Assembly: GCF_025698545.1 (NCBI RefSeq)
Contig: NC_068566.1
Coordinates: 48,029,192-48,093,191 of the forward strand
Length of the DNA: 64,000 bases
Direction: 5' to 3'
From: Gossypium raimondii
Taxonomy: Eukaryota; Streptophyta; Magnoliopsida; Malvales; Malvaceae
The translations under genes and the position numbers were made by a program. The notes below the pieces were generated by a model, which did no database searches, was not told the origin of the DNA, and saw nothing but the letters and a program-made list of their open reading frames with translations. Numbering within the stretch: the first letter of the stretch is position 1; each line of letters starts with the position of its first letter. Positions 38,223 to 64,000 of the stretch are shown piece by piece.

Positions 38223-39680
38223 AAAACCTTACAATCTCGAAATTTATTTTGGATGAAAAATCATGTATCTATATTCATTCTCCTTTAGATTTGTGAATTC
38301 AACAGGTTTGATTGCTTCTAATTTTGTATATTTTGAATTTAGGTCCTTTTAGATTCCATAGTTTTTTTCTGTAAACCTAAGCAGGGTCTTTGGGGAAAAT
38401 AGTGCTTTTCTCTAACTTTCAATTGAATTTTTTATACAACATAGAATTTATTTTCTTGTAGATTAATTATGTAAGAAATAGTTTGAGACATAGATTCACT
38501 TACTCCCGTGTAAAATTAGGGATAAATATTAACTTCATATATGAATTTTGATTCAATATTGTGCAATTTAATACATGAACTTCGATTTGGTGCTATTATA
38601 TATATGAAACTCAATTGCAGTTCATTTGTATATATAAAACTTTGATTTCGATTCAACTGCACACATTTAAATAAATGAACTAATGTAAAATGATTTGTGA
38701 AAATTGCATCAAATCAAAATTTCATATATAAAATCGTTACGATCGAGTTCACTTAAAACTAATATTGTTTTAAATATTTCCGTTACATTTTCTGCTATTA
38801 ATATTTTAATAAACCAATCGTTGAATTTATCAAAATAATTGTACTTGTCATTCATATAAAATTTTGATTTGGTTTAATATCTCAATTATGTCGATCTAAA
38901 ATACTGTTTATATTAATGTACATTTAACGATTAAAGGTTTTTACATTAAACAAATAGTTCATTTTTATTCTTTACTCTAAACTTGACATGCATGATGTAT
39001 ATAAATAGAACAAAAAAATAAGATGACTAAATTATTAAAATAAAATTCGTAAAAATATTATTGAAGTGTGTAAAACCATACTAATTAAATATCGATATAA
39101 GGGATTGATATATTTTGAAGTACAATTTTAATTTTTGTTGTACAATGGTCCAAATTGATAGTAGCAATATTGTAAAAATTCAATTAATAATTTTTTACTA
39201 AAGACTTTATCGGTTTGAACCTACTGATAACTTTATATAAATAAGACACAAGATATCCCTAAATTATGATCTTTATCTTAAATTGGTTCTCAAATTTTAA
39301 AATATTCGTAACATAATTTGAAATTAAAATTTTAAAGAAAAGTAAAATGTTCCCACATAACTATTAAATAATACGTAAAAATATTATGTAACATAATTTG
39401 AAATTAATATTTTAAAGAAAAGTAAAATATTCCCACATAAATTTTAAAATTAAAAATTAAAGATAAAGTAAAATTGAAAAAAGGAGAGTGAATGATAATT
39501 TTTGTAACGATTTTAGTAATTATTAACCATTGAGATTTACAAGGAGGAGGAGTTGGATGCCGTGGCCGTGGTTCACCCTCGATTGGGCGAAGAGCCATTG
39601 GATGGTGATAAAATGTCCTAGGAGATTGGTCTTAATAGGAGGAGAACGAGGGGGAGGGAAAGGTGATTTCTCTCTCTTGG
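38223..39680. other. AT-rich spacer with MITE-like and direct-repeat pieces
   Basis: Bases 38517-38900 contain phrases ('agggataaatattaactt', 'catgaacttcgatttggt') shared with 27258-27605. A direct repeat of about 53 bp, 'gtaacataatttgaaattaa...', occurs at 39308-39361 and 39389-39441. No gene recognised. Confidence 0.45.
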
Positions 39681-42579
39681 CTTGTTCTCATATGTTATGG
39701 TGGGCTTCTATATAAGAAATAAAGATGTTCACGTGCCCTGAGCTCACTGGCAGTGGAGTTATAGCTTATTCCGTCACAGTGGCGATGAAGTAATGTTCTA
39801 GGATATGACTTCTTAAAACAACTGGGTTATCAATAAGTTTGAGATCCCATGTGCATCTAGCGATGGTGAACTGATCCATAAGTGTTCAACATGTTGCGAT
39901 GGTTCAAGATTCTCCAAGTTCACTTGATTAGGAGATTCGTTATTATGGGCACGTTGAGCTTGTGGATTATGACACGTGGGAGGACACATAGAGGTATATT
40001 AGTAAAAGAAAAAAACTTTATTGATATAAGATTGATAATTTGAATTTAGAATTAAAATATTTTAAAATTTAAGGACGATATAATTTAGAAATGTTTAGTA
40101 CAATTAACTTTAAATAAAACTGATAAAGACTATGATCTAAAACCATAATTAGACATGCACAAATGATTAAGTCAAATACTTAGGTTCATTATAGCTAAAA
40201 AATTTAACAAAAAAGGGCAAGAAAGCTGAAGTCAATACCCGAACCACCCACCCTCGCTAATTGGTGGCCTTTACCATTAAAAGCAAAGGGTCACAATTGG
40301 TGCGCTCTTGACTTCACCTATACTCCCCACAAGTTTTCAAATTTAACCCTCCATCATCATTACACTCTTTATTTACCACATTAAAATTACTACAAATCCC
40401 AGTGCATGATTTTCAGTAAAATTACCAATAACTTCCTCAATTAGTTAACAAAATTAAGGATGTTATGGGTAATTCACCAATCACCAACACACTATTTTTC
40501 TTTACCATTGTCACCATCATTGCAATACCCGATGCAGTTGCTACTCAAAGCACTGCTGATTTGTTGAACGGTGGTGCATAAATGATTGTTAATGGCTGCA
40601 ATGCTCGACAAATTGATCTTTGCCGATGGTATTGTGCTGGCTAGAACTTGAAGTCCAACGGTGAGTAAACTTCCTGTTGTAATATTATGCCCATTTGCTT
40701 CGTCTTTACACCCACCATCATTCATCAGTTCCATTGGGGTTATAAAGAAGCCTAAGGGAAGCAATGGGATACACGACGGGTCCTCGCCACTCATCGCCAG
40801 CTGAACGGAATCGACGTCTACGGTTGAGTACACGACAAGGCTGCCGGATTTGTCGGTGCAGCTCTCTTGTAGCATTAGGTCTACGTGTTGTGATGAGTTG
40901 CTGGCAACCTGTGCATTTGAAGCTTATAGGGTTTTAATTCCATGTCGAAAAGGGGGGGGGGGGGGATTGTAGAAAATTGAAGTGAATTACGTTGATTCTA
41001 AGGAGTGAAATGCAATTTCCAGGATGGGAACCATTAGCAATATGAGCCACTTCATGTAAGGCATTCCCATTTGATAGCACCTCCAGCTGCATCATAGTAT
41101 ACTACCAAGTTTAGCATCATAATATAACATACCAAAACACCTATATTTATAAAAATATATATGAAGTAAAATGGGTGTTTTAATCTTTTATTTTTTTACA
41201 TCATCTTAAATGGAACACATTTACTAGGAAGTGTTATCAGTTTTATTTTAATAAATAATATAAATGCATAGAGTGAAATTTAAATTTGGAAAATGAGTAT
41301 TGTAGAGCAAAATTAAACCATAGAAAAAGTAAATGGAACCTGAGCACGGCGGCGTTCATCCCTCAAAAGATCGAAGACATGGTGGTGAGGATAAGGCAGC
41401 CAAGTGGTGGAAACAGCACAAAGAATGAGACCATTGGGTTGACCTGCTTCACTCACTTTCCTTGTGGTGATTCTAACAGTATCATCGGAGGAATCAGGAA
41501 CAGCTGTCCAAACCTGACCACTGCAACTGCTGATGTTCACACAGAATGTTCTTATCATCCTTTGGGACAGTCTCATTAGATTCTTCCTTGCCTCTGGTGA
41601 TGGTATCACTGTTTGTGACAATAAAATGGGTGTAATGTGAATCTCATGGTATTGGAAACCCAAAAAAAAAGACATGACAATTTATTAAGAACCTCCAATG
41701 TCGGGGATATTAGTGGCCATGAGACTAGCAATCCTTTCGCATTGTCTCTCTAAAACAGCTAACCAACGATTTGCTCCAAATGCCATCCCACTGTGTACGA
41801 AGTGACTGAATATTTGATGGATTGGTTTCTCTTCTATCTCTGCATGTTCTACCCACGTCACCTGCACTTTTTTATTATTATTTTCAGTATGCAAAAGTAA
41901 TTCAAGTTTTAAAAATTGAATGGACGCACCCTTGAGTAGCCATTAGGCATGTCTTGAATCAAACAACCAGAAGGCCTTCTTTTGTATAAAGGAAATGATG
42001 TTTGTAAACTGTTATGAAAGCCATCGAGTGGGAAATCAACGATTGCCCAATATGTTTCATCTTCCACATTTTGTTGTTGGCAATATCGTAGGAAATATGC
42101 CTCTCGCGTGGGCACCAATGGCGACAGCACATGCAATTCAGCATACATCTGCACAAATAAAACAATATTAAGACGGATTATTACAAATAAAATTGAATTA
42201 ACCTTCTGATACGAGTTGATACCAATTGAAGGCAACCGTTGGTTCCCGAAACACCTTGTGATATAACTTGAACACATTTGGCTCTAGCTACTATTGAAGG
42301 AAACAGCTCCATCCATTTGTTCTACAAGGAGAAAACACACATTTTAAAGCGATATTGTTGCAATTAACCATAGTATTATATGAAATTATAAGGAAATGGG
42401 AAGCTTACGGCATCCACAAATGCGTCTACCAAAGTAATGCTATTCATTATAACCACTGAACTATCACGGCTAGCTTCGGTCCTGAATTCACTTGAGCGTT
42501 GCTTCAGATTTAGTGGCCAGTGGAACATTCAGGAATGTTCGTCGAGGTTAAGCACTTCCTTCCTGGTTTCGTTGTTACG
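39681..42579. repeat. Tandem segmental duplication, unit 1 (2,899 bp)
   Basis: The sequence starting cttgttctcatatgttatgg at 39681 starts again at 42580, and the two stretches stay nearly identical to about 45470. Unit 1 holds a 3' flank and HDG5-like copy A. Unit 2 continues into the rest of copy B. The differences I noticed are mainly indels in single-base runs plus a few substitutions near the unit end. Confidence 0.92.
40492..42579 (-). pseudogene. HDG5-like copy A: 5'-truncated HD-ZIP IV gene
   Basis: Minus-strand 3' half of the gene at 43391-47265. Exons match copy C: partial exon 5 (42579-42409), 42321-42223, 42148-41930, 41861-41693, 41608-41340, 41086-40991, 40908-40492. All junctions and frames here are intact. 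It encodes most of the START domain ([47 protein letters not shown]) and the conserved C-terminal part to the stop. Homeodomain, zipper, start codon and promoter are absent: at 42579/42580 the coding sequence switches abruptly from '..gtttcgttgttacg' to 'cttgttctcat', the tandem-duplication junction. A protein could arise only by read-through from copy B or from a new promoter. Confidence 0.9.
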
Positions 42580-45469
42580 CTTGTTCTCATATGTTATGGT
42601 GGGCTTCTATATAAGAAATAAAGATGTTCACGTGCCTCGAGCTCACTGGCAGTGGAGTTATAGCTTATTCCGTCACAGTGGCGATGAAGTAATGTTCTAG
42701 GATATGACTTCTTAAAACAACTGGGTTATCAATAAGTTTGAGATCCCATGTGCATCTAGCGATGGTGAACTGATCCATAAGTGTTCAACATGTTGCGATG
42801 GTTCAAGATTCTCCAAGTTCACTTGATTAGGAGATTCGTTATTATGGGCACGTTGAGCTTGTGGATTATGACACGTGGGAGGACACATAGAGGTATATTA
42901 GTAAAAGAAAAAAACTTTATTGATATAAGATTGATAATTTGAATTTAGAATTAAAATATTTTAAAATTTAAGGACGATATAATTTAGAAATGTTTAGTAC
43001 AATTAACTTTAAATAAAACTGATAAAGACTATGATCTAAAACCATAATTAGACATGCACAAATGATTAAGTCAAATACTTAGGTTCATTATAGCTAAAAA
43101 ATTTAACAAAAAAGGGCAAGAAAGCTGAAGTCAATACCCGAACCACCCACCCTCGCTAATTGGTGGCCTTTACCATTAAAAGCAAAGGGTCACAATTGGT
43201 GCGCTCTTGACTTCACCTATACTCCCCACAAGTTTTCAAATTTAACCCTCCATCATCATTACACTCTTTATTTACCACATTAAAATTACTACAAATCCCA
43301 GTGCATGATTTTCAGTAAAATTACCAATAACTTCCTCAATTAGTTAACAAAATTAAGGATGTTATGGGTAATTCACCAATCACCAACACACTATTTTTCT
43401 TTACCATTGTCACCATCATTGCAATACCCGATGCAGTTGCTACTCAAAGCACTGCTGATTTGTTGAACGGTGGTGCATAAATGATTGTTAATGGCTGCAA
43501 TGCTCGACAAATTGATCTTTGCCGATGGTATTGTGCTGGCTAGAACTTGAAGTCCAACGGTGAGTAAACTTCCTGTTGTAATATTATGCCCATTTGCTTC
43601 GTCTTTACACCCACCATCATTCATCAGTTCCATTGGGGTTATAAAGAAGCCTAAGGGAAGCAATGGGATACACGACGGGTCCTCGCCACTCATCGCCAGC
43701 TGAACGGAATCGACGTCTACGGTTGAGTACACGACAAGGCTGCCGGATTTGTCGGTGCAGCTCTCTTGTAGCATTAGGTCTACGTGTTGTGATGAGTTGC
43801 TGGCAACCTGTGCATTTGAAGCTTATAGGGTTTTAATTCCATGTCGAAAAGGGGGATTGTAGAAAATTGAAGTGAATTACGTTGATTCTAAGGAGTGAAA
43901 TGCAATTTCAGGATGGGAACCATTAGCAATATGAGCCACTTCATGTAAGGCATTCCCATTTGATAGCACCTCCAGCTGCATCATAGTATACTACCAAGTT
44001 TAGCATCATAATATAACATACCAAAACACCTATATTTATAAAAATATATATGAAGTAAAATGGGTGTTTTAATCTTTTATTTTTTTACATCATCTTAAAT
44101 GGAACACATTTACTAGGAAGTGTTATCAGTTTTATTTTAATAAATAATATAAATGCATAGAGTGAAATTTAAATTTGGAAAATGAGTATTGTAGAGCAAA
44201 ATTAAACCATAGAAAAAGTAAATGGAACCTGAGCACGGCGGCGTTCATCCCTCAAAAGATCGAAGACATGGTGGTGAGGATAAGGCAGCCAAGTGGTGGA
44301 AACAGCACAAAGAATGAGACCATTGGGTTGACCTGCTTCACTCACTTTCCTTGTGGTGATTCTAACAGTATCATCGGAGGAATCAGGAACAGCTGTCCAA
44401 ACCTGACCACTGCAACTGCTGATGTTCACACAGAATGTTCTTATCATCCTTTGGGACAGTCTCATTAGATTCTTCCTTGCCTCTGGTGATGGTATCACTG
44501 TTTGTGACAATAAAATGGGTGTAATGTGAATCTCATGGTATTGGAAACCCAAAAAAAAAAAAGACATGACAATTTATTAAGAACCTCCAATGTCGGGGAT
44601 ATTAGTGGCCATGAGACTAGCAATCCTTTCGCATTGTCTCTCTAAAACAGCTAACCAACGATTTGCTCCAAATGCCATCCCACTGTGTACGAAGTGACTG
44701 AATATTTGATGGATTGGTTTCTCTTCTATCTCTGCATGTTCTACCCACGTCACCTGCACTTTTTTATTATTATTTTCAGTATGCAAAAGTAATTCAAGTT
44801 TTAAAAATTGAATGGACGCACCTTGAGTAGCCATTAGGCATGTCTTGAATCAAACAACCAGAAGGCCTTCTTTTGTATAAAGGAAATGATGTTTGTAAAC
44901 TGTTATGAAAGCCATCGAGTGGGAAATCAACGATTGCCCAATATGTTTCATCTTCCACATTTTGTTGTTGGCAATATCGTAGGAAATATGCCTCTCGCGT
45001 GGGCACCAATGGCGACAGCACATGCAATTCAGCATACATCTGCACAAATAAAACAATATTAAGACGGATTATTACAAATAAAATTGAATTAACCTTCTGA
45101 TACGAGTTGATACCAATTGAAGGCAACCGTTGGTTCCCGAAACACCTTGTGATATAACTTGAACACATTTGGCTCTAGCTACTATTGAAGGAAACAGCTC
45201 CATCCATTTGTTCTACAAGGAGAAAACACACATTTTAAAGCGATATTGTTGCAATTAACCATAGTATTATATGAAATTATAAGGAAATGGGAAGCTTACG
45301 GCATCCACAAATGCGTCTACCAAAGTAATGCTATTCATTATAACCACTGAACTATCACGGCTAGCTTCGGTCCTGAATTCACTTGAGCGTTGCTTCAGAT
45401 TTAGTGGCCAGTGGAACATTCGGGAATGTTCGTCGAGGTTAAGCACTTCCTTCCCGGTTTCGTTGTTAC
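42580..45469. repeat. Tandem segmental duplication, unit 2
   Basis: Second unit of the 2.9-kb duplication, slightly shorter because of a shortened G run (43851 region) and single-base losses. It carries the 3' part of copy B and its 3' flank. Its end, at 'gtttcgttgttacg' near 45470, runs on uninterrupted into the remainder of exon 5. Confidence 0.9.
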
Positions 45470-47265
45470 GAACCCAAAGGGGTTCGTTCGTTCGACACAT
45501 CTTCGCGACTTCATCGGTGGCGGACATAGCGAGTTCCATTGCAATAGTTTTCTCCTCTTCCATTAAGATGAGGTTGTTATTGTCGGGATAAGAGGGTGTT
45601 TCGGACAAGGTAGGAGGCATAGGTTCAAGGAATTGTCTTGGATATATGTTCATGTCCAATTCTAATGAAGGTGGCATCAATGCACCCATTGTTTGAATTG
45701 GCCGACCAATGTAACGAGAAGCTATGGCACACACACGTTCCAACTGTCCAAACATATATTATATTGAGGGATAATATGTATAATAGTAAAAGTTTCAAGG
45801 ACACCCTTATAGTAGGAGTTCTATTCTATTTTATTCACTCTATTTAAAAAATAGACAAATTAATCCTGGTACATTAGATAAACATATATTATATTAACGG
45901 AATAATGAAAGCACATGCTTCATGCTGACCAGTTTTTAATAGTAGAAATGAATGAAATTTTTAACAAAAGAGTTAATTTATTTTTTAATCTAATATATAT
46001 GGACTAATTTTCTCATTTTTCAACTAGCGGGAGCAAAACGCAATCCAACTTTTATGTACATAAAAAAGAGAAAAGTAGAAATGTTGATGAAATAACCTCT
46101 TCACCGAGCCGAGCATTCTCAATACGAAGTTCATCAAAAGAAACCCCACCAGGCACAGGTGGACCACCACAATTAGGACAAACGAGTTTACTGAGTTCAG
46201 CTTGTAGCCTGTAAAACTCGCTCTTCAAAGACTCATTTTCAGCTCTAAGTATCACATTCTCCGATCTATCTTGTTGAGCCTAAGCATTGAAAAACCAAAA
46301 GAGTGATAATATGGTTAAGAGGTTGATTGAATGAATTTAGGCATTAACTGCAGTGAGAAGCACATTAGCAGGTAAAGGAGTTTAATGATGAAATCCCAGT
46401 AGTCCATATTAATGGATTACAGACTGTATAGTTTACAGATATACAAAGACTAACACAGCAGTACTGGAGTGGCCCCAAATTAAATAACATCCTTCCTTTT
46501 CTGCTCCTACCATTTTTCTCTAATAAAAGGGTATAGCTGTTTAGGGTTTTAACTGGTTTTCATGCAAATGCCATCAATGCTTTTTCCTCGGGACTCGTTT
46601 TTTTCTGTTTTGTGTTAAATAAAGATTAATTATGATGTGCTTACCATTTAAAACAGCAACGCTAAACAAAACACGGTTTTACCTTCATCTGAGTACGCCG
46701 GTTTTGAAACCAGAACTTGACTTGTCGTGGTTTCAGGCCAAGTTCTTGACTTAGTTTCATCCTTTGTTTGTCATCTGGATGAGGACATTCCTTAAAAACA
46801 CTGCAAAAAACACCAACACCAACATTCTTCTTTAAAAACACAAAGATTTCTTAGAATTTGATATATATTTTTTAAACAAAAATGAATTTACGCTTCCAGT
46901 TCTTGGATCTGATGAGCAGTGTGTCGATGGTAACGTTTCTTCTTCAACGGCTGCTCAGTGGTTTCTTGTAATTCACTTTCGGAACCACTTTTCATCTCCT
47001 CTTTTCCTCTCAACAATGACCCATTTTCTTCTTTCTATTCAATAATATATAATAAAAACATAAAATAAATGGTTTTTTGTTTCTGTGTGTGTGAAATAAC
47101 ATGAAATAACAAAAAAAAAAAAAAACTTACAGGGATCATAGGAGGTAAAGGCTCCAAAGGCAAGTAAGTGAAATTAGGGTTTTGAAATGTTGATGTAAAT
47201 AAAGTTTCTGAAGACACCACCATATTCCCTCCCATTGATGAAATAGCTTCACAATCTCCATACAT
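43391..47265 (-). CDS. HDG5: HDG5-like HD-ZIP IV transcription factor, copy B (two frameshifts as given)
   Basis: Minus-strand gene with the same 11 exons as copy C: 47265-47131, 47034-46892, 46800-46683, 46279-46097, 45743-45300, 45212-45114, 45039-44822, 44753-44585, 44497-44229, 43975-43881, 43807-43391. Homeodomain, zipper-loop-zipper and the first part of START are open. At the exon 7 end one G is missing (TCAAG|gtgcg against TCAAGG|gtgcg in A and C), which shifts the frame and meets a TGA at once in exon 8. Exon 10 lacks one base (ATCCTGAAATT against ATCCTGGAAATT), a second -1 shift. As given, the product is about 446 residues. Both changes are in single-base runs, so sequencing error is possible. 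Against copy C, exon 5 is one codon shorter and exon 6 begins AAC instead of CAC. Confidence 0.85.
45786..46055. mobile_element. Long-TIR MITE, family 1, copy 5 (HDG5 copy B intron 4)
   Basis: Decayed member with 'aaaaaatagacaaattaatcc', 'taatctaatatatatggac' and 'gagcaaaacgcaatccaac'. The same intron in copy C holds a further-decayed version (58885-59103), so the insertion predates the duplication. Confidence 0.6.
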
Positions 47266-47796
47266 TTTTCTCCCTCTTTTTGTTTCTCTCACAGTCTTTG
47301 CTTCACTTGAAACACATTACATATAAGAATATATGTATTGCTCCATATATATATATATATATAAACAAAGAATTATTGGGAAGAAGAAGACAGTAACATA
47401 TAATAAAAGAGCAAATTATATAGTCTAAAATTAAGTGCAAAAAAAGGTAAATGATGTGATCTTTTCCAAAATGAAAAAGACCACTGCTTCAGCTTCAAAA
47501 AAAAAACACCAAAAATATAAATTAAATTAAAGAAAAAACAACCCAAAAAAAGTCGAATGAAGGTGGCTTTACAATATACAATGAAAACCCACCATGAACC
47601 AAAGCTTGAGAAATTAAACCAAACACAAGAAAAAAAATGAAGAGTAAAATAATAAATACCACAACTAATGTTGTCGGTGTTTTCTTCTGCAGAAGAAGGT
47701 GAAGAAGAGAAAAAGAAATCTCTCCCTCTATTTCTTTTCTTTTCTTTGCTTTTTTACTTTGATTTGTATACCTAAAATAGACACTCACAGCTCTGT

Positions 47797-47799
<3 letters not shown>

Positions 47800-47839
<40 letters not shown>
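47800..47839. repeat. C run and (CT)n microsatellite in copy B leader
   Basis: A run of about 9 c followed by some 16 ct units, about 540 bp upstream of the copy B start. Read on the gene strand it is (GA)n-GGGG in the probable 5' leader or promoter. In copy C the same place (57090-57125) has only a few broken ga units. Confidence 0.85.
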
Positions 47840-47841
<2 letters not shown>

Positions 47842-48039
47842 CTTCTTCAAATCATATTTTGTTCTTAATTGCAATGCACATCCTTTATTTTACTCTCCAT
47901 ATTTTGATTTTATCTTAGAATTCCAAAAAATAATTAATTAAGATCGCAGTAATTCTATCATCAGCTCATAAGCCTTGTTGTTGGCTTGGATTGGATGTTA
48001 AACTGAAACTAAAAACATGATAGTGGAGTATGTTGAAAA

Positions 48040-48365
48040 CATGTGGATCAAATTGTAAAGATTCTGGAAGTTCTTATACTAGATTAAAAAGTAAAACGGT
48101 CCTTTATGTTAAAATTACATCCATTTCTACTCTTAAAAACAAGCTTAGTTGATGGAATAATCAAGCAGTTACATTAGGCGTGCTATGTGTACCTCATGCT
48201 GATATATAGGGATCAGTTTTTAACGGTAGAAATAAGTGAATTTTTAAACCAAAAGCACCAATTTACTCTTTAATTTAACGTCTATGGACTACTTTGCCCA
48301 TTTTATGAGTAAAAAGAGCAAATTGCATATAACTCATAGTACAAAGGCCTTCATGGTATTTTAAC
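48040..48365. mobile_element. Long-TIR MITE, family 1, copy 6 (left arm)
   Basis: 'actagattaaaaagtaaaac', 'cattaggcgtgctatgtgtac', 'ggatcagtttttaacggtag', 'aaggccttcatggtatttt'. Upstream of copy B. The mirror copy in the right arm is at 56525-56870. Confidence 0.6.
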
Positions 48366-49255
48366 TTCAACTCCAAACTGCAATTTAAAACCTAAATTGA
48401 TAGCTAAACTGTGAGAAGGACTTAATTGATATAAAACATAAAACTTAGAAAACTGAATTGAAATATTTAAAATCTAAAGTACAAATTAGAAGACATTTAA
48501 TGCAATTAAATACAAATTTTAATACAAGGATATTGTAACTGCGGTTTCAAATAAATCCAAATTTTATTACAGTCTGGTCCTCTCTTCCATACGTTTCCCA
48601 AAATGAAAAAAAAAAAAGGTAATAGAAAGTCAAAACATTTTTTAAATTTAAATTTCCTTAATACACGCGCATGCCAATATCGTGAGTTTAAAGTTCCTCT
48701 GATTTTGATTCCTTACTTTCACGCTCTCTTTTCGCGTGCGTTATTTTTGCTATGGTAAATGTTTTGTCAAATTCCACCCTAACTCACTAAACTATTAGTA
48801 TGTTTATATTTTAGTTATTAACTTTAAAATATTATAAAATAATCATTGAACTATTCAAAAATTTCATGTAAGTCATTAAACTATTCAAAATTTGTTAATT
48901 TAGTCACTGTTCTATTAAGTTTTTTTTAAAAGTATAAGTACATGTTTACAATTTGATCAGTGTCGAGATTGGAGATGAAAACTGTTTAGATTTTAGTTTG
49001 TTAATTCATGACATTCAAAGTTTTTTCATGAAAAAAATAAATTGTAAAAAAGATGAGGAATAAGACATTTCAATTGGGGTAGACAATGCGAATAAAAAAT
49101 GTCATACAACAACAATTTCAACCACTCAATAGCTTAAATGAAAACTTTCAAATTTCCATTAGGAATTGCTGGCTGAAAATGTCAAACGCTAAATGGATCA
49201 AAGCCGTCCGTTTCTATTAGAAGTGGGCCTCCCAGAAGAAATATTGAAGTGTGTG

Positions 49256-52200
49256 ATATTTTTAAAATTTTATTATTTTCATATATATATTTAAAAATCA
49301 ATTTAATTAATTGATTTAATAACTATAGTTTAAATATGACTGAAATTTCAAATTTTAAAAAGTACGTAAGTTAAGAAGGATTAAATTGAAAATAATAACT
49401 AAAACCACAAGTTATATATAATAGAAATTAATAGCAGAATTTGACTTAATAGATTTAATCGAAAACCCAAAATTTAAAATATAGAGAGAATAAGATAAAT
49501 CAATAATTTATGTCTTATTAGTTTATTAAATATAAACATATTTAAGACATCAAAATGTCAGTGAAGAATCTTAAAGGATACAAACTTGAGTAGATTTAGG
49601 TGAGTAATGTACTCCTCCTTACAAGTATTAATTAATAGTTTGATAGTTTTTTAGCAAAATTTTAAGGAATGTTTTAAGTAATGCATTAATATTATATATA
49701 TATATAACAACACATTTAATATATATGCTATATAAAATATATCTCAATTTAATTAAGAAATTATTAAAATAATTTATAAAGTAATAAATATTATTTTGAG
49801 GTGGTTTATATATATATATATAAATTTACATAAAATATAAGTTAAATCAATATAAAGAAAGATTTGAACATAAATCATCATTTTTTTTTTCTAAAGGTTT
49901 AATTTTACCAATTTAACTAAAGCTTTATTTATTTTTAGGGATAATCTAATTTTTGTCCCTTGAAACTTTTTATTAGGTCCATTTTGGTACATGAACTTGA
50001 CAACTAGATCCATTTTTGTCCATAAACTTGGATTTCATCAAGCTTTGATGATGTAACCAGTATTCTTGGAACATGACTTGATTGGTTAGTTGAACTGATT
50101 AGACTGAGAACCTACTAAATCGAAAACTGAGACAAAAAACAATAATTGAACAAGCTGAACTATGTTAATATTTAAAAAAATGATTTTTTTTATTTAATCA
50201 TTATTGATATAACTTTCGAATCAATCAAACTGACTAAATCAATAAGCAATGGTCTGATCGGTTCAACCACTAATCCGACTATTAGAAAACCATATGTGAC
50301 ACTCTAAGGTTGTACCATGTCATCACCTGAAAAATTATGTAATTTTTTTAATTTTTAAGTGATGGTGTGATATAATCTCGTAGTGTCACATCATTAAACT
50401 TTTTATATTTTTCAAATTTAGGGACCAAAATAAATATAATTGTCAAATTTTGAATATCAAAGTGAATAAAAGATAGAAATACCCAAATAGAAGTAATTTT
50501 GTAAATTGAAGGTTCAAAAATTATATTCTACCTCTAAGATATAATAATCATCATATTTATACATCACAAGTATATACACAAATTATTAAATCTAAAGGGA
50601 AGGGAGACTTTGGCATAAATGTGAAGACATAAATGGGGTTTTGACCATTTGTGCTAAAATCCAAGGGTGTCTTCATCACAAGGACCACCTCTTTCTTACA
50701 TTGAATTTACTAAACAACTTCATTAAAGCAATAGCTACTACACTTTTTTTCTTTTTAGGTATCTAGTAATCATATTGGATTTTATTTAAAATCGAAATTA
50801 ATTCGAATCAAATTCCTTAATGAAAGATTTTTTCATTTATAAAATCCAACATTAGACATTTTAATTAATACTTTTGATTCAAAAGTTGGGCAAATGAATA
50901 ATTGCTTTCATGTATTAGATTGTTGATTACACGTAACATTTTTGTAATTACTGTCATTTTTTTTTGATGAAAAGGATGTTGGATTTAAATGATGAGAGTT
51001 ATGAAGCTCAAAACCAAATGAGGAAATGGTAATACCACCTTGGGTGTTAAAAGACAAACATGGTTCCTTTTATGAATAAACTTGACCATCAAAATATCAA
51101 TGATTTGAAGTTGAAAAGATTACTAGACTCAAATAGGTTAAGCTCAAAATGACTTTCACAAAAAAATACCCAAACCCACAATTACCCAGAAATCTCAAAT
51201 TTTATATTAAGTAGAGCTTCACGTACCACTTTTAATCAATAATTCAACTCAAATAAAAAAAATGTTAAAAAATTCGGATATAAATATGAATTTAAAGCTT
51301 CAAATGTTGGAAAGTACATTGAGACCATATTTACTGTTAACACTTGGGGGGTGGATGTGTACGTGTGTTGCTATTATTATATAATAATAGAGGAGGTAAT
51401 TGATTATATATTCAATGCTAATGCATGTATTAAATTAATTAATGGCATTGATGATATCATATGACCTGAGAATGAGAAATGTGGAGTGTTGGACACAAAT
51501 TAATTTATTATTTTCTAAGTGGACAATTATGGTGGTGTCTAATTAATTACTATATAATATATTCTGATACAAAACTATATCTTATATTTGCTTGTACAAC
51601 ATAAACAAACTATGAATGAGATTCACTTAATTAACATATCCAACTTATACCTTATCGTATCATATATAACTGCAATAAATGAGTAGCAAACTGTGTAGTT
51701 ATACCCTAAAATTAATGCACTCAATGTAAGGGGAGTAGAGGGTGCCACCCTCTAACCTCACTTTTTTACGTTCAGGGTTCGTAACTACTCCTCCTAAAAA
51801 TATCGTCTTTAATATTCAAACTTGTGTTGCCCCTTGGGTGCAATAGTAATGTACATTGTCTTCATAAGTTTTTATCTTTTTATTAATAACAAGTGTTGAG
51901 TGCAATAGCAATGTGCATTGTTTTCATAACGAGAGGACATCACGGGAGTACTGATCATAAACCATTAAATTAAACTATAAAACCGACATGAAAAATATCA
52001 AATACATATGATGGCAAATGGGGGTGATGAAATGGCCCACAACTGTGACATTTCATGGGCTGTTGCTTTTTGCTGACTTTTGGTTCCAACAAGCACCTAT
52101 ATATTCAATTACAGTTCCCCCTCGCCACCCCTAACATTTACTTTGGTACAGCATTTCTCACCCACTCCACTTTCACCCTTTGTGTATTTATTCAAATCAG

Positions 52201-52749
52201 GTACTGCTACTCTTTTCTTTTCTTTTTCTGTTCAATAATTACTATTACTCTAATACTCCTACAATTATGGATTATCTTTATCTAGTCATTACCTCAGCAA
52301 GCTAGAGACCAACCTATTTGCATGACAATAATTTTCTTGGTTAGTTGGGACAACACCCAATTTTATGTATAATATATGATTCAAAGCCTTGGATCAATAT
52401 AAATGGTCGCTTGGGATTGACCATATACTCTAGGGTCAAAGCCCATCACTTCTTAACACTATGACTTCTAGTTGGTTAAAATACGTTATAAGTTTATGTA
52501 TTCTTTACAAATTTAAAACATAGTCTTTGTACTTTCATTTTTAGAAATTTAGTCCATTACATTTCAGATTTCAAATTTCAAGTCCAATTGTTAACCTTGT
52601 TAAAATTATTTTGTTAAATTTGGATTCATCACAATATTTTTTTTTATTTTTTTGGATAAGTGAACATTTCAATTCAACCATGAAAAAATAGCAAAGTTTT
52701 ATATAATAGGTAAAATAAAGCACACCACTAGCCCTCAAACCCTACATAA
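49256..52749. other. Spacer between inverted arms, AT-rich part
   Basis: AT-rich DNA with several at repeats and decayed MITE phrases ('ttttggtacatgaacttgac' near 49985; 'taagtcctt'-like near 52490). Open frames here are short and not recognisable. No gene seen. Confidence 0.4.
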
Positions 52750-54600
52750 ATTTTAATCTAATTAAAAAGAGTTTGAATTTGCCTTGATGACTTTCCATGC
52801 AATCTTCCATTCCTCTCTTGCCAAACATAGTAAATGAAAGCATTCCAAGAAACCTTTATAATAGTGGCTTCTAGGGACTTCCTTTTCCCATACTCCAAAA
52901 CCCAGTTCAACATATTAGCACAAGATTCATGCCACAAAAACTCCCCACATTCTAGCAAAATTCTCACCTAAAGCAAGTTAGAAAACAAATAAGACGCAAA
53001 TAAATGATTGCTCGACTCATCCTCAATGTCACACAAACAACATAAAGTATCAATTTGACTGTGTAACTTGTCTTGGACTATGCTAGGTGTCAATTGCAAG
53101 GAATGAGACATGGATCCCATATAGGAAAATAAAGGATTTCCTAGTGGGGTTTATATTGACCTAGGCTCTTAAACCACAATAGGTAGCTTTTGGGGTGCGG
53201 TTCTTCAAAGGTTTATATCACTTGGTATCAGAGTCAGTCATCATGTTTCTCAGTTACAATCGTGTGGTGTGAGTGGTGACGACGAAGTTACCGTGTTCAC
53301 TTGAGGCTAGCTAGCATAAAGCTAGTTCGTGTGGGTGACGAGGCTGCGAAGCGTGGTGGATTGTTATATGCCAATTGCAAGGAATGAGACTTGGATCCCA
53401 CATAAGAAAAAAAGGGATTTCCTAGTGGGATTTATATGGACTTAGGCTCTCTAACATCAATAGCTAGCTTTTGGCATGTGGTTCTCCAAAGGTCTATATA
53501 ACCATATGATGAATGCATGTCATGGAATTGTAGGGCTCCCTTATACCACTATATGCCAAGAACTTTTGTCAAGTTGTTGTCTAGTTCTTTCCTAAATTCT
53601 ATTAGCTTTGTATGGCTCTGGTAGATCCCATAAATTCAACGTAACATCCTTAAGCTTTAAATTCTATAGGCTTAGGTAGAGACTGCACTTGCCAAATATT
53701 TGGACTCTTGAGAACATATAGCTTAGACCAAGCCACCCAAAGAGAACCAACCTTGATTAGGATAAGCCACAAACATCTCATAATGAAATCTCTGTTCCAA
53801 ATTGGAAGTTTCTTAAAACCGAGACCACCTTCGGATAATATACCTTATCCCAACTAACTTTGGCACCTTTAGCAAAAAGCTCATGCCCTTTCCAAATAAA
53901 GGAATTACACAACTTATTCACCTTTTTAATAACTTTAGAGGGAAAAAGAAAAATACGACACCAAAATTTTTGCATACTAAACAAAACATATTAAATAAGT
54001 TGGAGTCTATCAACATAAGATAAGCATTGAGAAGCCCAACTTTGAATGTGTTTAGTAATCTTTTCCACTAAAGAATCACAATTCCCACTGTTCAAGTTTT
54101 GTGTAAGAAGTGAAACCCTAAGATAATGCACTAAGAGTGTTCCAATCTTTATCCCAGTAATTTCCACAATTGAAAGCAACTCATCTGAGCCAACCCCTCC
54201 ACTATATAACTTACTTTTGAAAAAATTCACCTGAAACCCCTGGTATTTTATAGAACAAATCCAATGCATTTCCAATTGGCAAGATAAATTCTGAGTTGCC
54301 CTTAGTGAATACCAAAAGGTCATCAACAAAATTGAGTTAAATATAGCTTCTGACACATAGGATGATAGCCAAACACTCCATGAAGACCTGTCAAGTTCAA
54401 TAATCCAAATAATACATTCATCACCAGGCATAAAATTTTGTTGAAAACCCATCTGGCCTAGGAGCCTTACCACCAATATTCATCAAAAAAATTGAAGCTT
54501 TAATCTCCTCTCGATTTATAAGCTAAACTAGGGAATTTTTCATGCTCTCTGTTAGTTTAACATCAACTACATCTCTAATCAATTCATCAGAAAACTATTG
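52750..54600 (-). pseudogene. Degraded LINE (non-LTR retrotransposon) ORF2
   Basis: Minus-strand fragments in the expected order. 54480-53991: reverse-transcriptase remains, with PDGFQQNF-like start, a decayed active-site region (MTFWYSLRATQ where FADDL-type is expected) and QGFQVNFFKSKLYSGGV. 53984-53778: NKLCNSFIWKGHE and AKVSWDKVYYPK, typical of the thumb/connection part of plant LINEs. 52967-52758: the C-terminal block SWNAFIYYVWQERNGRLHGK. Stops, frameshifts and a missing RT core make it inactive. A mini-LTR element interrupts it at 53088-53504. The element lies wholly inside the spacer between the two HDG5 arms. Confidence 0.8.
53088..53504 (+). mobile_element. TRIM-like mini-LTR retrotransposon
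   Basis: Two direct repeats of about 133 bp, 53088-53220 and 53369-53504. Both have '(t)g(t/c)caattgcaaggaatgagac', 'ggatccca', 'gatttcctagtggg', 'tttatat', 'taggctct', 'tagcttttgg'. They flank about 148 bp that begin cttggtatcagagtca (53221), the usual primer-binding site complementary to initiator tRNA-Met, and end with a purine-rich stretch near 53341-53360. No coding region. Total about 417 bp fits terminal-repeat retrotransposons in miniature. The two repeats differ at several places, so insertion is not recent. Target-site duplication is not clear. Confidence 0.8.
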
Positions 54601-55959
54601 GAAAAAATTTCGGTCTGAAAACGGTTTTCTTGCACAACGAAAAATTAAAATTTTGAAAACTGATTTGTGATATTTTATAGCAAGAAACCCTAACCGAATT
54701 CATACATGTGTTTTCAGCTTAGCAGACGTTCGTTGTTCTCAACTTTCAACCAAACGGTCTTCTCTGTTATTCTTGTTCCACGAACTGCTCCGTTATTTTA
54801 TAGCAATATATCATTTACCCTTATCTTGAGCTATGAATTCCACTGTTGTGAATGATGCTAAATACTATAGAAGTCATACACCAAACACACTGGCTTTCGA
54901 TTCCTTTTCTATTCGAACTCAGACTTTCACTTACATCAAAGTGTATGAGTTACACATACATAGTCTGCCATCCACTCAGGATTTAGGTATGTCACACTAT
55001 AAACGTCACAAGTGATTAAATTCATAAACAAATATAGCAAGCTGGAGTGACATTATACATGTGATATGTTTGTCACGTAAGATTCTAGAGAGAACAAATT
55101 CAACAACTATTTGGTCAAGATTGGAATTTCGAAATTCAAAAAATATAATAACTAAATTAGAGCACAAAAACTAAACCCTCAAAGGAACTAATAACAAAAT
55201 TTGACAAAAAGACTTCATTTTCAATAATACTTCACCGCTTTCATATTTGATGCACTAACCATGTATAAATTTATAAGCTATCAATAAACCACAAGATATC
55301 ACCTAGTAAAATATAATAGTTATATATTTTTCTCGTAAACTACACTTAAGGTCATTAAATTATTAGTAAGTATATGTTTTAGTCATTCAAGTTCAAAAAG
55401 TTACAAAATGGTCACTAAACAATTCGAAAGTTTTCATTTAAGACATGAACTATTTAAAGGTTCTTTTATTCAAGTCACTAAGTTGTTACTTTTTTTTTTA
55501 AGAAGTTTGGCTAGCGAGCTCCAAATGACGATTGGGATAGTGGATTAGTACCTAATGACAAGTAAAAGAACATACCTTAGATCCAAGTCGATCTAATGGT
55601 TAGTATCAGAGATCGAAGAAAAAAATTATTTGGATTTTAGTTTACAGATTTGTGAAATTCAAAAGTTTTATAAAAAAAAAAACTAAAGTGTAGAAGAAAA
55701 GGGAAAGGAAAGCTTTTGATTGGTGCATGTGATGTAAACAGAGAAGGTTGTACAACGACGATTTTAACATCCTAGTGATTTAAATGAACATTTTCGAGTA
55801 GTTCAATGGCCATTTTATAACATTTTGAAATTGAATTATCAAAAGTAAACATATTGATAGCTTAGTGACCTTGAGTGTAATTTATTCTATTTATTTTAAT
55901 AATTTTTAAATTTATTAACTCGTTAATAATATTTAATATTATGCACTAACTTTGAGATT
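54601..55959. other. Spacer between inverted arms, right part
   Basis: 54600-55020 has higher complexity and an open frame at 54833-55015 without recognisable domain; it may be part of another retroelement. 55330-55890 is a MITE-like element: 'aaggtcattaaattattag', 'tggtcactaaac' at the left, and 'tggccattttataac', 'gatagcttagtgacc' at the right in reverse. Confidence 0.4.
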
Positions 55960-56524
55960 TCTTTTGGGGGTCCACTTCTAAAAGAAACGGACGGCTTTGA
56001 TCCTTTTACGTTTGACATTTTCTAGCCACAATTCCTAATGGACGGCTACGATCATTTGACAACATTGACTTTTTACTTCCTAAATTTTTCTTTTTGACTG
56101 TGTTTTTAACCCAAGTAAAAAAACACTACAACAGCAAAAATAACGTCCGCGAAAAGAGAGCGTGAAAGTAAATAAGGAATCAAAATCAGAGGAACTTTAA
56201 CTTCACGATATTGGCATGTGCGTGGATTAAGGAAAACATCAATTTTAAAATTGTTTGACTTTCTATTACCTTTTTTTTTTCATTTTGGGAAACGTATGGA
56301 AGAGAGGACCAGACTGTAATAAAATTTGGATTTATTTGAAACCGCAGTTACAATATCCTTGTATTAAAATTTGTATTTAATTGCATTAAATGTCTTCTAA
56401 TTTGTACTTTAGATTTTAAATATTTCAATTCAGTTTTCTAAGTTTTATGTTTTATATCAATTAAGTCCTTTTTTTCAGTTTATCTATCAATTTAGGTTTC
56501 AAATTGCAGTTTGGAGTTGAAGTT

Positions 56525-56870
56525 AAAATATCCCGGTTACCCCATGCCACAAGTATAATAACAATATCACTGTGAGTTAGATTGCAATTTGTTTCTTTTA
56601 GTCATAAAATGGGAAAATTAGTCCATAGACGTTATATCAAAGAGCAAGCTGGTTCTTTTGGTTTAAAAGTTCACTTATTTCTACCGTTAAAAACTAGTCT
56701 CTGTATATCACTATGAGGTATACATGGCACGTCACGTGTAACTGCCTGATTATTCCATTAACTAAGCTAGTTTTTAATAGTAGAAATTGATGGAATTTTA
56801 ACAGAAAGGACTAGTTTATTCTTTGATCTAATGGATTAATAGAGGGACCTCCAAAGTCTTTACAATTTGA
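56525..56870. mobile_element. Long-TIR MITE, family 1, copy 7 (right arm)
   Basis: Mirror of 48040-48365: 'aaagagcaagctggttc', 'tctaccgttaaaaactag', 'acatggcacgtcacgtgtaa', 'aatagagggacctcca'. Upstream of copy C. Confidence 0.6.
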
Positions 56871-57680
56871 TCCACATATTTTGAACATGCTCCACTATGA
56901 TTTTTTTAGTTTCAGTTTCACGTCCAATCCAAGCCAACAACTAGGCTAATGAGCTGATGACAGAATTAATAGGATACTCATATTTTAAGGACTTAATTAC
57001 TTATTTTTTGGAATTCTAAGATAAAATCAAAATTTGGACAGTAAAATAAAGGATGTGCAATGCAATTAAGAACAAAATATGATTTGAAGAAGCAAAAGAG
57101 AGAAGAAAGAGAGAGAGAAGGAGGGGACATAGCTGTGAGTGTCTATTTTAGGTATACAAATCAAAGTAAAAAAGCAAAGAAAAGAAAAGAAATAGAGGGA
57201 GAGATTTCTTTTTTTCTTCATCTTCTTCTGCAAAAGAAAACACCGACAACATTAGTTGTGGTATTTACTCCTACATTTTTATTTTTTATTATTTACTATT
57301 TTACTTTTCATTTTTTTTCTTCTGCTTGGTTTAATTTCTCAAGCTTTGGTTCATGGTGGGTTTTCATTAATGTATATTGTAAAGCCACCTTCATTCAACT
57401 TTTTTTGGGTTGTTTTTTTCTGTAATTTAATTTATATTTTTGGTGTTTTTTTTTTTTTGAAGCTGAAGCAGTGGTCTTTTTCATTTTGGAAAAGATCACA
57501 TCATTTACCTTATTTAGCACTTAATTTTAGACTATATAATTTGCTCTTTTCTTATATGTTACTGTCTTCTTCCCAATAATTCTTTGTTTATATATGTATA
57601 TGGAGAGATACATATTTGCTTATATTTAATGTGTTTCAAGTGAAGCAAAGACTGTGAGAGCAACAAAAAGAGGGAGAAAA

Positions 57681-60600
57681 ATGTATGGAGATTGTGAAGC
57701 TATTTCATCAATGGGAGGGAACATGGTGGTGTCTTCAGAAACTTTATTTACATCAACATTTCAAAACCCTAATTTCACTTACTTGCCTTTGGAGCCTTTA
57801 CCTCCTATGATCACTGTAAGTTTTTTTTTGTTATTTCATGTTATTTCACACACTCAGGGAAAAAAACCATTTGTTTTATGTTTTTATTATATATTTTTTA
57901 ATAGAAAGAAGAAAATGGGTCATTGTTGAGAGGAAAAGAGGAGATGAAAAGTGGTTCCGAAAGTGAACTACAAGAAACCACTGAGCAGCCATTGAAGAAA
58001 AAACGTTACCATCGACACACTGCTCATCAGATCCAAGAACTGGAAGCGTAAATTCATTTCTGTTTTAAAAATATATATCAAATTCTAAGAAATCTTTGTG
58101 TTTTTAAAGAAGAAGGTTGGTGTTGGTGTTTTTTGCAGTGTTTTTAAGGACTGTCCTCATCCAGATGACAAACAAAGGATGAAACTGAGTCAAGAACTTG
58201 GCCTGAAACCACGACAAGTCAAGTTCTGGTTTCAAAACCGGCGTACTCAGATGAAGGTAAAACCGTGTTTTGTTTAGCGTTGCTGTTTTAAATGGTAAGC
58301 ACGTCATAATTAATCTTTATTTAACACAAAACAGAAAAAACGAGTCCCGAGGAAAAAGCATTGATGGCATTTGCATGAAAACCAGCTAAAACCCTAAACA
58401 GCTATACCCTTTTATTAGAGAAAAATGGTAGGATCAGAAAAGGAAGGATGTTATTTAATTTGGGGCCACTCCACTGCTGTGTTAGTCTTTGTATATCTGT
58501 AAACTATACAGTCTGTAATTCATTAATATGGACTACTGGGGTTTCATCATTAAACTCCTTTACCTGCTCATGTGCTTCTCACTACACTTAATGTCTAAAT
58601 TCATTCATTCCACCCCTTAAACACATTATCACTCTTTTGGTTTTTCAATGCTTAGGCTCAACAAGATAGATCGGAGAATGTGATACTTAGAGCTGAGAAT
58701 GATTCTTTGAAGAGTGAGTTTTACAGGCTACAAGCTGAACTCAGTAAACTCGTTTGTCCAAATTGTGGTGGTCCACCAGTGCCTGGTGGGGTTTCTTTCG
58801 ATGAACTTCGTATTGAGAATGCTCGGCTTGGTGAAGAGGTTATTTCATCAAAATTTCTACTTTTCTCTATGTATACTATGTAGTAGTAAGAGTCAGCATT
58901 TTACTCTCAATACTTGAAAAAATAAGAAAATTAGTCCATATACATTAAATAAGAAAATAAACTACTCCTTTTGTTAAAATTTTTAATTCATTTCTATTGT
59001 TCAACATAAAAGTCTAATTTGTTCTTTCATCTTATGGACTAATTTGTCCATTTTCTTTAATAGAATAAGTAAAATCTATAAGAGTGTCATAATACTTTTA
59101 CCATCATATGTATTATCCCTCAATATAATATATGTTTGGACAGTTGGAACGTGTGTGCGCCATAGCTTCACGCTACATCGGTCGGCCAATTCAAACAATG
59201 GGTGAATTGATGCCACCTTCATTGGAATTGGACATGAACATATATCCAAGACAATTCCTTGAACCTATGCCTCCTCCTATCTTGTCCGAAACACCCTCTT
59301 ATCTCGACAATAACAACCTCATCTTAATGGAAGAGGAGAAAACTATTGCAATGGAACTCGCTATGTCCGCCACGGATGAACTCGTGAAGATGTGTCGAAC
59401 AAACGAACCCCTTTGGGTTCGTAACAACGAAACTGGGAAGGAAGTGCTTAACCTCGACGAACATTCCCGAATGTTCCACTGGCCACTAAATCTGAAGCAA
59501 CGCTCAAGTGAATTCAGGACCGAAGCTAGCCGTGATAGTTCAGTGGTTATAATGAATAGCATCACTTTGGTAGATGCATTTGTGGATGCCGTAAGCTTCC
59601 CATTTCCTTATAATTTCATATAATACTATAGTTAATTACAACAATATCGTTTTAAAATGTGTGTGTTCTCCTTATTGTAGCACAAATGGATGGAGCTGTT
59701 TCCTTCGATAGTAGCTAGAGCCAAATGTGTTCAAGTTATATCACAAGGTGTTTCGGGAACCAACGGTTGCCTTCAATTGGTATCAACTCGTATCAGAAGG
59801 TTAATTCAATTTTATTTGTAATAATCCGACGTAATATTGTTTTATGTGTGCAGATGTATGCTGAATTGCATATGCTGTCACCATTGGTGCCCACGCGAGA
59901 GGCATATTTCCTACGATATTGCCAACAACAAAATGTGGAAGATGAAACGTATTGGGCAATCGTTGATTTCCCACTCGATGGCTTTCATAACAGTTTGCAG
60001 ACATCATTTCCCTTATACAAAAGAAGGCCTTCTGGTTGTTTGATTCTAGACATGCCTAATGGCTACTCAAGGGTGCGTCCATTCGATTTTTAGAACTTTT
60101 AAGTTTAGATTTTTTTAAAATTGAATAACTTTTGCATACTGAAAATATGCAGGTAACGTGGGTAGAACATGCAGAGATAGAAGAGAAACCAATCCATCAA
60201 ATATTCAGCCACTTCGTACACAGTGGGATGGCATTTGGAGCAAATCGTTGGTTAGCTGTTTTAGAGAGACAATGCGAAAGGGTTGCTAGTCTCATGGCCA
60301 CTAATATCCCCGATATTGGAGGTTCTTAACATATTGTCATGTCTTTTTTATTTTTTTTGTCAATACCATGAGATTCACATTACACAAATATTGTTGTCAC
60401 AAACAGTGATACCATCACCAGAAGCAAGGAAAAATCTAATGAGACTGTCCCAAAGGATGATAAGAACATTCTGTGTGAACATCAGCAGTTGCAGTGGTCA
60501 GGTTTGGACAGCTGTTCCTGATTCCACGGATGATACTGTTAGAATCACCACAAGGAAAGTGAGTGAAGCAGGTCAACCCAATGGTCTCATTCTTTGTGCT

Positions 60601-61534
60601 GTGTCCACCACTTGGCTGCCTTATCCTCACCACGATGTCTTCGATCTTTTGAGGGATGAACGCCGCCGAGCTCAGGTTCCATTTACTTTTTCTATGGTTT
60701 AATTTTGTTCTACAATACTCATTTTCCAAATTTAACCCCTATACTTTAAATTTCACTCTATGCTTTTATATTATCTATTAAAATCAAACTGATAATACTT
60801 GCTAGTAAATGTGTTCCATTTAAGATGATGTAAAAAAAATAAAAGATTAAAACACCCATTTTACTTCATATATTTTCTATAATTATAGGTGTTTTGGTAT
60901 GTTATATTATGATGCTAAACTTGGTAATATACTATGATGCAGCTGGAGGTGCTATCAAATGGGAATGCCTTACATGAAGTGGCTCATATTGCTAATGGTT
61001 CCCATCCTGGAAATTGCATTTCACTCCTTAGAATCAACGTAATTCACTTCAATTTTCTACAATCCCCCCCCCTTTTTTCGACATGGAACTAAAACCCTAT
61101 AAGCTTGAAATGCACAGGTTTCCAGCAACTCATCACAACACGTAGACCTAATGCTACAAGAGAGCTGCACCAACAAATCCGGCAGCCTCGTCGTGTACTC
61201 AACCGTAGACGTCGATTCCGTTCAGCTGGCGATGAGCGGCGAGGACCCGTCGTGTATCCCATTGCTTCCGTTAGGCTTTTTTATAACCCCAATGGAACTG
61301 GTGAATGATGGTGGGTGTAAGGACGAAGCAAATGGGCATAATATTACAGCAGGGAGTTTACTCACCGTTGGACTTCAAGTTCTAGCCAGCACAATACCAT
61401 CGGCAAAGATCAATCTGTCGAGCATTGCAGCCATTAACAATCATTTATGCACCACCGTTCAACAAATCAGTAGTGCTTTGAGTAGCAATTGCATCGGGTC
61501 TTGCAATGAAGGTGACAATGGTAAAGAAAAATAG
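57681..61534 (+). CDS. HDG5: HDG5-like HD-ZIP IV transcription factor, copy C (complete)
   Basis: Epidermal/reproductive-type HD-ZIP class IV factor. Eleven exons: 57681-57815, 57905-58047, 58139-58256, 58656-58838, 59144-59590, 59681-59779, 59854-60072, 60153-60321, 60407-60675, 60943-61038, 61118-61534. All are in phase: 2,295 bp, 764 residues. Start [17 protein letters not shown]. Homeodomain about 76-135 ([23 protein letters not shown] at 123-128). Zipper-loop-zipper about 133-215 with the class IV CPNCGG loop (Cys166, Cys169). START about 257-480 ([65 protein letters not shown]). Then the conserved C-terminal region ([45 protein letters not shown]). The order matches what I recall of Arabidopsis HDG5. 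Class members bind the L1 box; no clear TAAATGYA site was found upstream. Confidence 0.93.
58885..59103. mobile_element. Long-TIR MITE, family 1, copy 8 (HDG5 copy C intron 4)
   Basis: Strongly decayed: 'gaaaattagtccatatacatt' on the left, 'ggactaatttgtccattttc' and 'tcataatacttttacca' on the right. Same intron position as 45786-46055. Confidence 0.55.
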
Positions 61535-61875
61535 GGTGTTGGTGATTCGTGAATTACCCATAACATCCTTAATTTTGTTAACTAATTGAGGAAGTTATTG
61601 GTAATTGTACTGAAAATCGTGCACTGGGATTTGTAGTAATTTTAATGTGGTAAATAAAGAGTGTAATGATGATGGAGGGTTAAATTTGAAAACTTGGGGG
61701 GGTATAGGTGAAGTCAAGAGCGCACCAATTGTGACCCTTTGCTTTTAATGGTAAAGGCCACCAATTAGCAAGGGTGGGTGGTTCGGGTATTGACTTCAGC
61801 TTTCTTGCCCTTTTTTTGTTAATTTTTATATATAGTTATAATAAACCTAAGTATTTGACTTAATCATTTGTGCTG

Positions 61876-64000
61876 GTCCTATTATGATTTTAGTCCTTTT
61901 ATTATGCTGAAGTTTAGATTATCAATAAAACTGTCATATACTAATAGAAGATATCCGTTGGTCTGCAGGATCCTATAGCAACCATAAATATCCATTGATA
62001 TATACATGTTATCCTATAAATTCTAATATAGTAAAGGTATTTATATTTGTATTAGTGAATTTTTTAAAAAATATATGTTGGGATTTAACTTTATTTTTCG
62101 ATGTAACTTAATAAATACTAACATAGAGGAGCAAGTAGCATAATCCATTGGCAGAATGTTTATAGAGTTAATGACTTTGGGATCTCCTTGGAGATTCTAT
62201 AACTCAAGTCATCTGAATTGAGTTAATAAATTGAGTAATTAAAAAAGTTATATTAGCAAATAAACCATTTTTAAATTATGACACATGATTAATTATCAAT
62301 ATTGTCATCATTTTCCATTAACTAATCTTATGCTTTAATTAACCATTGATTAGTGAAATAATTAAGTTAAACATTAGGCTAATCATGCATGTAAATATGA
62401 AAGTAGTAGGATGAAAGAGAAATTCAATTCTCTTCTTCCTTGTTCAGCTAAGACAACAAACAATAGAAAGAAAGAAAATATTCCTTCATCAAGCCACCAT
62501 TGTCGCACCTTGCATCAAGTATTAGTGAGTTCTTTTCCTTAAAATTTCAATAGGATTTTTGTTAGTAGTTAGTCTAGTGAATTAGTAAGTATTTATATGA
62601 AATTTCCATTGATGAAAGCTTGGGAAAAATTAAAGGTTAGAGATTAAAATTCATACATGTTTATAATAGATTAGATTATAATAGAATATGTTGAAATTGT
62701 TGTAAAATGTGTTAAATTAAGCTTGAATCAAGCTTAGATTATATAGTTAAATTAAGCTTAAGTAGGGACTAATTTGTAAAGAATAAAAACTTTGAGGATT
62801 GGTAATGAATAACGATAGTAGGAGGCCTGTAGTATATTTATTAAGCAAGATTTAAATTTGACCGGGAAAATTGTGAGAAACAAGTATTTTGTATATTTGG
62901 GGTTTACAGGGACAAAATTGAATAAGATACATTTATGTTTAATTAGAATGTTTTTATGTTCAAATTGTAGAAACTAATGAATTTGTGCATCTAAATTTTC
63001 CGTAAGTAACTAAAGATGAAGCCAGGATGTCGAAAAGCAAAGGGAAAGCTAAAGTTGTCAAAGAATAGCTAATTTGGTTTGTGCTCTCAAAGTTTGAGTT
63101 CATTAAATATCTAAATGTATTTGTTTGACTTGTTAAGTGATCAAAAATAGTAAACTATCAAGATGATTATGTTTGAAAGGTACATATTTACTGGATTAAG
63201 TGATTTGTGATCATAGGCATATGATTTGTATGTATAAATGCTTGTTTGAGGATATACAAAAATTAGTAACGAAATTTTCCCTATTAACATTGTCGGATAA
63301 AGTTACTGGTGTAATTGGCATGCCGTAGGGTCCATTTGATAGGTGGGAGTTTCAGCGCTTTACGCGTCGCATATTTAGCGCCTTACGCGTGTTACATTCA
63401 ATTACCATATGCATATTATACTAGTGTGGTTGGTGGGATCGATGCTTTATGCCTGACTAGCACTTCGATGTGTATTTGGTGTAATGGTGGATTGATCCGA
63501 GCATCCGTTCTTATATCTAACTCGGTTAATAACCGCACCTACTGTTTTAACCTAACATTGACAATTATGCCCTTAAATTAAAAGTAACTTAAGTTAGTTT
63601 GGACAAAAAATTGTCTTTGCAGTTTTTCACCCGTCAAGCTCCGGTTTCTCGACCCCCTTGTCAGTTGGCTTCGAGGGTTGTTTGGGAGCTTCAATGCCAT
63701 GGCCATGATCTTCTGGTGTCGCTACTTGGCACTCATGTGACTTAGCTTCCTCACTTTGGTGTCTAGGCTTGAGATTGCGACTTTGGTATGTCGTGACCAT
63801 GTACAATATCGTATTTCAACACATATGTATTTGAATTGAGATATTAATGCTAGTATGAAATATTATTGTAATATGATTATTCAAATGCAAATATCCTAAG
63901 GGTGCATGGAGAATCTCATTATATGAACGAGCATCTAAATGAAATGAATAAAATCAAATAAAGAATTATTTGATTTCATGGTATATGCGTGCTAATGAAA
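61876..64000. other. AT-rich region with probable LTR-retrotransposon fragment
   Basis: After the inverted arm ends, bases to about 63290 are AT-rich with no gene. About 63325-63545 ('agcgctttacgcgtcgcat', 'agcgccttacgcgtg', 'gactagcacttcgatgtg', 'gatccgagcatccgttc') and 63620-63665 ('cacccgtcaagctccggt') look like phrases from Gypsy-type LTRs of cotton, from memory. No matching second LTR or coding domain is in the window, so the identity is tentative. The open frame 63315-63581 is not a gene. Confidence 0.35.

Follow-up and report, generated by a model that had tools for sequence, protein, structure and literature searches.

The Gossypium raimondii window analysed here (64,000 nucleotides) contains a head-to-head pair of HDG5-type HD-ZIP IV genes, A and B, together with a partial copy, C, that abuts A. 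The best overall reading, to which we give a probability of about 0.6, is that A and B form a real, retained pair of divergent paralogues; that a false duplication is the likeliest source of C; and that two one-base losses in A are probably consensus errors. (That the three copies belong to the HDG5 clade is presumed from sequence features.)

Organization of the locus

Comparison of the window with itself by BLAST detected a direct repeat, 39680-42579 with 42579-45470, that is 99.38% identical over 2903 columns. It also detected inverted matches between 43036-45812 and 61893-59076 (94.2% identity), between 45943-48765 and 58996-56120 (89.8%), and between 49155-49275 and 56042-55924 (85.4%). 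Together with exon models, this self-comparison bears out the three-copy structure of the original prediction, in which one HD-ZIP IV gene had undergone both a tandem and an inverted duplication. The coordinates held as well, as did the dimensions of about 6 kb for the arms and about 6.7 kb for the spacer. The features are as follows:

43036-49275, - strand: left arm of the inverted duplication, 6240 bases, with gene A and about 2 kb upstream
55924-61893, + strand: right arm of the inverted duplication, 5970 bases, with gene B and about 1.8 kb upstream
49276-55923, no strand: spacer between the arms, 6648 bases
47265-43391, - strand: gene A, full-length copy, 11 exons, two one-base losses (exon model)
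57681-61534, + strand: gene B, HD-ZIP IV of HDG5 type, intact, 11 exons, 764 aa (exon model)
42579-39680, - strand: copy C, 3' part, comprising the last stretch of exon 5, exons 6-11 and 3' flank, abutting the 3' flank of A
42579, no strand: A/C join, with substitutions at 42531, 42564, 42637 and 42638
39513-39872, - strand: dispersed repeat in the 3' flank, unbroken across the outer edge of C at 39680

A and B are thus head to head and divergently transcribed, and C lies beside A on the same (-) strand. In the window plus 100 kb on each side, a 264-kb stretch with 0 N, a self-search at word size 28 turned up a single further repeat that reaches 400 bp and 85% identity, a 431-bp pair; at this word size, repeats of greater divergence would escape detection. 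Since that pair stands alone in 264 kb, the A/B/C structure is far beyond chance.

The two arms differ by 3-6% along most of their length (identity mostly 94-97%). Faster divergence is seen in intron 4 (21%) and in the upstream stretch 47942-48420 (16%). Both stretches overlap sequence that matches elsewhere in the window, and they were read as decayed elements.

The three copies

Gene B is intact. Its spliced exon model has GT-AG boundaries at all 10 introns and a single open frame that encodes 764 aa. The Pfam domains Homeodomain, START, and PDF2_C follow one another in the protein, all above cut-off, so protein B has the Homeodomain, START, and PDF2-like C-terminal domain that define HD-ZIP IV. 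By comparison with other HDG5-like proteins of this class it is ordinary; the paired arrangement alone sets it apart.

Gene A had been described as a near-full copy. Its position and - strand stand, but it is better called full-length: all 11 exons are present, with two one-base lesions. One G is missing at the exon-7 splice donor (44823), which leaves GT-AG boundaries at nine of the 10 modelled introns, and another is missing in exon 10 (43910). Both of these G residues are present in B and in C. Copy C lacks exons 1-4; its six introns all have GT-AG boundaries, and it carries an in-frame stop at 42531, near its broken end.

Exon 5, used as a DNA query against all 281 contigs of the genome (750.8 Mb), matched three places, namely A, B, and C, and nothing outside the locus. 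A search for the PDF2_C family gave 45 exon-level matches, nine in the window and 36 elsewhere; the latter are expected, because this is a gene family with distant members.

A and B as probable retained paralogues

Over 762 codons, A and B differ with a Ks of 0.091 and a Ka of 0.0114, for a Ka/Ks of 0.125 (Fisher p 1.5e-15, from rounded counts). The corresponding ratio for C and B is 0.14 over 477 codons. Free drift of one copy since the duplication would, in our judgement, give a much higher Ka/Ks. The low ratio for A and B points to purifying selection on both genes, each of which seems to have been constrained for most of the time since they were duplicated. If plant substitution rates of 2.6e-9 to 1.5e-8 per site per year are applied, the A/B Ks translates into about 3-17 million years. 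The inverted duplication looks genuine and not young.

Exons, together with introns other than intron 4, contain 118 substitutions and 15 indel events between A and B. These introns have diverged by 0.045, about half as much as the synonymous sites (0.09).

A Ks of 0.091 is, as a general judgement, high for alleles. This weighs against an origin of the pair as a haplotype or homoeologue artefact, in which one allele was placed inverted beside the other. Moreover, the arms end sharply, the 100 kb on each side are unduplicated within the 264 kb examined, and exon 5 matches no other place in the genome. Such an origin was set aside on account of the flanks and the Ks; it is hardly credible, even though assembly errors of this kind exist, according to PMC9516828.

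On the preferred reading, the pair arose as follows. An inverted duplication of an HDG5-type HD-ZIP IV gene, which took in about 2 kb upstream of it, would have generated the divergent paralogues A and B. Purifying selection would then have retained both, presumably as ordinary epidermis-type transcription-factor genes (a function taken from the family). The intactness of A and the expression of both genes are inferences within this account.

The A/C join

Across the 2903 columns of their alignment, A and C show four substitutions and four indel events. All four substitutions lie within 60 bp of the join (15 to 59 bp away), and none is found elsewhere in the 2.9 kb. The chance that four independent substitutions would all fall within 64 bp of the join is 4e-6; if the adjacent changes at 42637 and 42638 are counted as one event, leaving three, it is 9e-5. 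Every indel alters the length of a single-base run (T once, C once, G twice). Given the A/B ratio of substitutions to indels, the odds of four indels and zero substitutions away from the join are about 1 to 2 in 10,000, although this figure ignores the fast mutation of long runs and becomes 0.01 when the two G losses alone are counted.

Three of the substitutions can be polarised. At two, B matches A and differs from C. At another, the dispersed repeat copies (4/4) match the outer copy, at 39739; at the fourth substitution these copies split 2 versus 2. In all three polarisable cases the derived base is the one beside the join, and such bases occur on both its sides.

The dispersed repeat also shows which edge is new. 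Its genome matches on C13, C1, and C6 cover both sides of 39680, and the repeat is interrupted at about 42585, near the join. Because other copies of the repeat are unbroken across 39680, the outer edge of C represents the original sequence, and the new junction is the one at 42579. The two units share one base at most where they meet. No N gap occurs there or anywhere in the 264 kb.

Differences that resemble sequencing errors and cluster at a join, as those between A and C do, are what a false duplication would leave. C would then stem from two sequence ends that overlapped over 2.9 kb and were set side by side, unmerged: one end would stop in exon 5 and the other in the 3' flank, with poorer bases near each. 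The two one-base losses in A would then be consensus (base-calling) errors. False duplications arising from sequencing error are documented in PMC9516828. The homotype class described there resembles the A/C tandem in its adjacent, near-identical units and in differences that look like sequencing errors. According to the same paper, however, a gap lies between the units of a false duplication in most cases, and unsupported sequence sometimes connects them. That no N gap is present at 42579 is therefore a point of difference, and one that somewhat favours a real duplication.

A real and very recent tandem duplication would mean that the 3' half of A was copied in place by repair, with mutations at the join, and that A later suffered its two frame-breaking losses, so that only B is still intact. 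Continuous sequence across the join, without N, agrees with such an origin, as does the near absence of shared bases, which is usual in end-joining repair; error-prone repair at the join could also cluster substitutions there, and a fresh duplication of this kind would leave nearly the pattern that is observed. The two lesions of A, absent from B and C, likewise agree with losses that followed the copying. Yet this history requires zero substitutions away from the join in 2.9 kb alongside two coding one-base losses in A, a gene that was strongly constrained until those losses. A false C, by contrast, would explain the oddity of two disabling losses in A that are common to neither B nor C. A real tandem is accordingly possible but doubtful, and we put the odds for C at about two to one in favour of artefact. 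If C is false, the lesions of A are probably base-calling errors, and the locus consists of two intact, divergent HDG5 paralogues. The original prediction had itself named a copy artefact, collapsed or haplotypic, as grounds for discarding it; given the pattern of A/C differences, such an artefact is a live possibility for C but is unlikely for the A/B pair.

The inverted pair as a proposed silencing locus

The original prediction had also suggested, while marking the step as inference, that a head-to-head inverted gene pair can yield double-stranded RNA and silence family members, with Arabidopsis PAI and soybean CHS as precedents. This part fares less well than the structure. A and B are transcribed apart, so both RNAs represent the same strand of the gene and double-stranded RNA does not follow from the layout; the PAI precedent is tail-to-tail. 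Silencing would instead require read-through of the spacer to make a hairpin, whose small RNAs would damp HDG5.

The inverted arms are long, and their identity (mostly 94-97%) is no objection, since an inverted repeat of 86% identity makes small RNAs in Arabidopsis, according to PMC3203196. A gene in the spacer that might drive read-through, however, was not recognised among 10 frames scanned with Pfam. One of the 10 gave a sub-threshold match to zf-RVT (E 9e-4; score 20.3 bits, below the cut-off of 27.5), and the frames at 52761-54479 (-) look like a decayed LINE, a reading that is partly our presumption. Nor were separate target genes of high identity found by the genome-wide search with exon 5 DNA: its three matches are all at this locus, and therefore no further close target is seen. 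Purifying selection on both A and B also speaks against silencing.

Transitions offer little help in either direction. They are somewhat raised at CG sites in the gene (21/350 versus 85/2606 at non-CG sites, p 0.014). Upstream, CHG transitions (12/105) are more frequent than CHH transitions (57/745), though not significantly (p 0.18), and in the gene CHG transitions are not raised (12/427 versus 73/2179 for CHH). A methylation scar of past silencing was considered and set aside, as none is clear; such counts, made without an outgroup or a single-copy control, are weak either way.

The two precedents share some features with this locus. Arabidopsis PAI1-PAI4 likewise consists of inverted duplicate genes with high arm identity. 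In PMC3203196, however, the PAI1-PAI4 repeat is tail-to-tail and is transcribed through from a heterologous upstream promoter, and it has unlinked targets, PAI2 and PAI3. A and B are head to head, with no outside promoter recognised and no other close target by exon 5. The soybean I locus (CHS1-3-4) is similar in having inverted gene clusters and a spacer of comparable size. According to PMC6710647, that locus has two identical 10.91-kb arms and a 5.71-kb spacer, and acts on CHS7 and CHS8 elsewhere; the arms here are diverged, and a distant target was not found.

Orientation, selection, and the lack of another close target in the exon 5 search make silencing by the A/B pair quite improbable. 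A variant of this idea supposes that C is real and A only just disabled, with read-through that starts in the spacer or farther out making the A-B pair a young, self-targeting source of small RNAs that tunes the surviving HDG5, at an early stage. This would be more improbable still.

Repeats and neighbouring genes

The motif GCATTAAATG occurs once per strand in the window, at 48503 (-) and 56383 (+), which are matching places upstream of A and B. It presumably resembles an HD-ZIP IV binding site. It may be a shared autoregulatory site, or possibly a chance occurrence in one ancestral sequence.

A MITE-like repeat family with palindromic copies is present at 25151-26074, 23222-23607, 48080-48363, 56606-56831, and 45927-46061. 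Among these are copies in the upstream part of each arm and in the fourth intron of gene A.

The remaining genes recognised in the window are the following, the first three being ordinary plant neighbours:

1-669, + strand: protein kinase fragment
14438-14929, + strand: ribosomal L25-like exon
32405-32899, - strand: calmodulin-like EF-hand gene
37785-38219, + strand: member of the plant self-incompatibility S1 family, small and secreted (PF05938; score 28.2 bits, cut-off 24)

The last of these lies a short way to the left of copy C.

Implications

Among titles and abstract openings on HD-ZIP IV/HDG5, tandem duplication, and cotton, none describes this locus. One tandem STARD pair each is reported for G. 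arboreum and G. raimondii by PMC12295190, in a passage that leaves the genes unnamed.

On the ordinary reading, the locus holds two divergent HDG5-type paralogues that have been retained, and the partial third copy is best left out of any count until reads confirm it. An annotation of three HDG5 genes on this assembly, or of A as a pseudogene, would probably be wrong. More generally, the orientation of inverted gene pairs should be weighed before they are named as silencing loci. If both copies work, A and B would neatly illustrate how an epidermal regulator, once duplicated and transcribed in divergent directions, is kept under selection.
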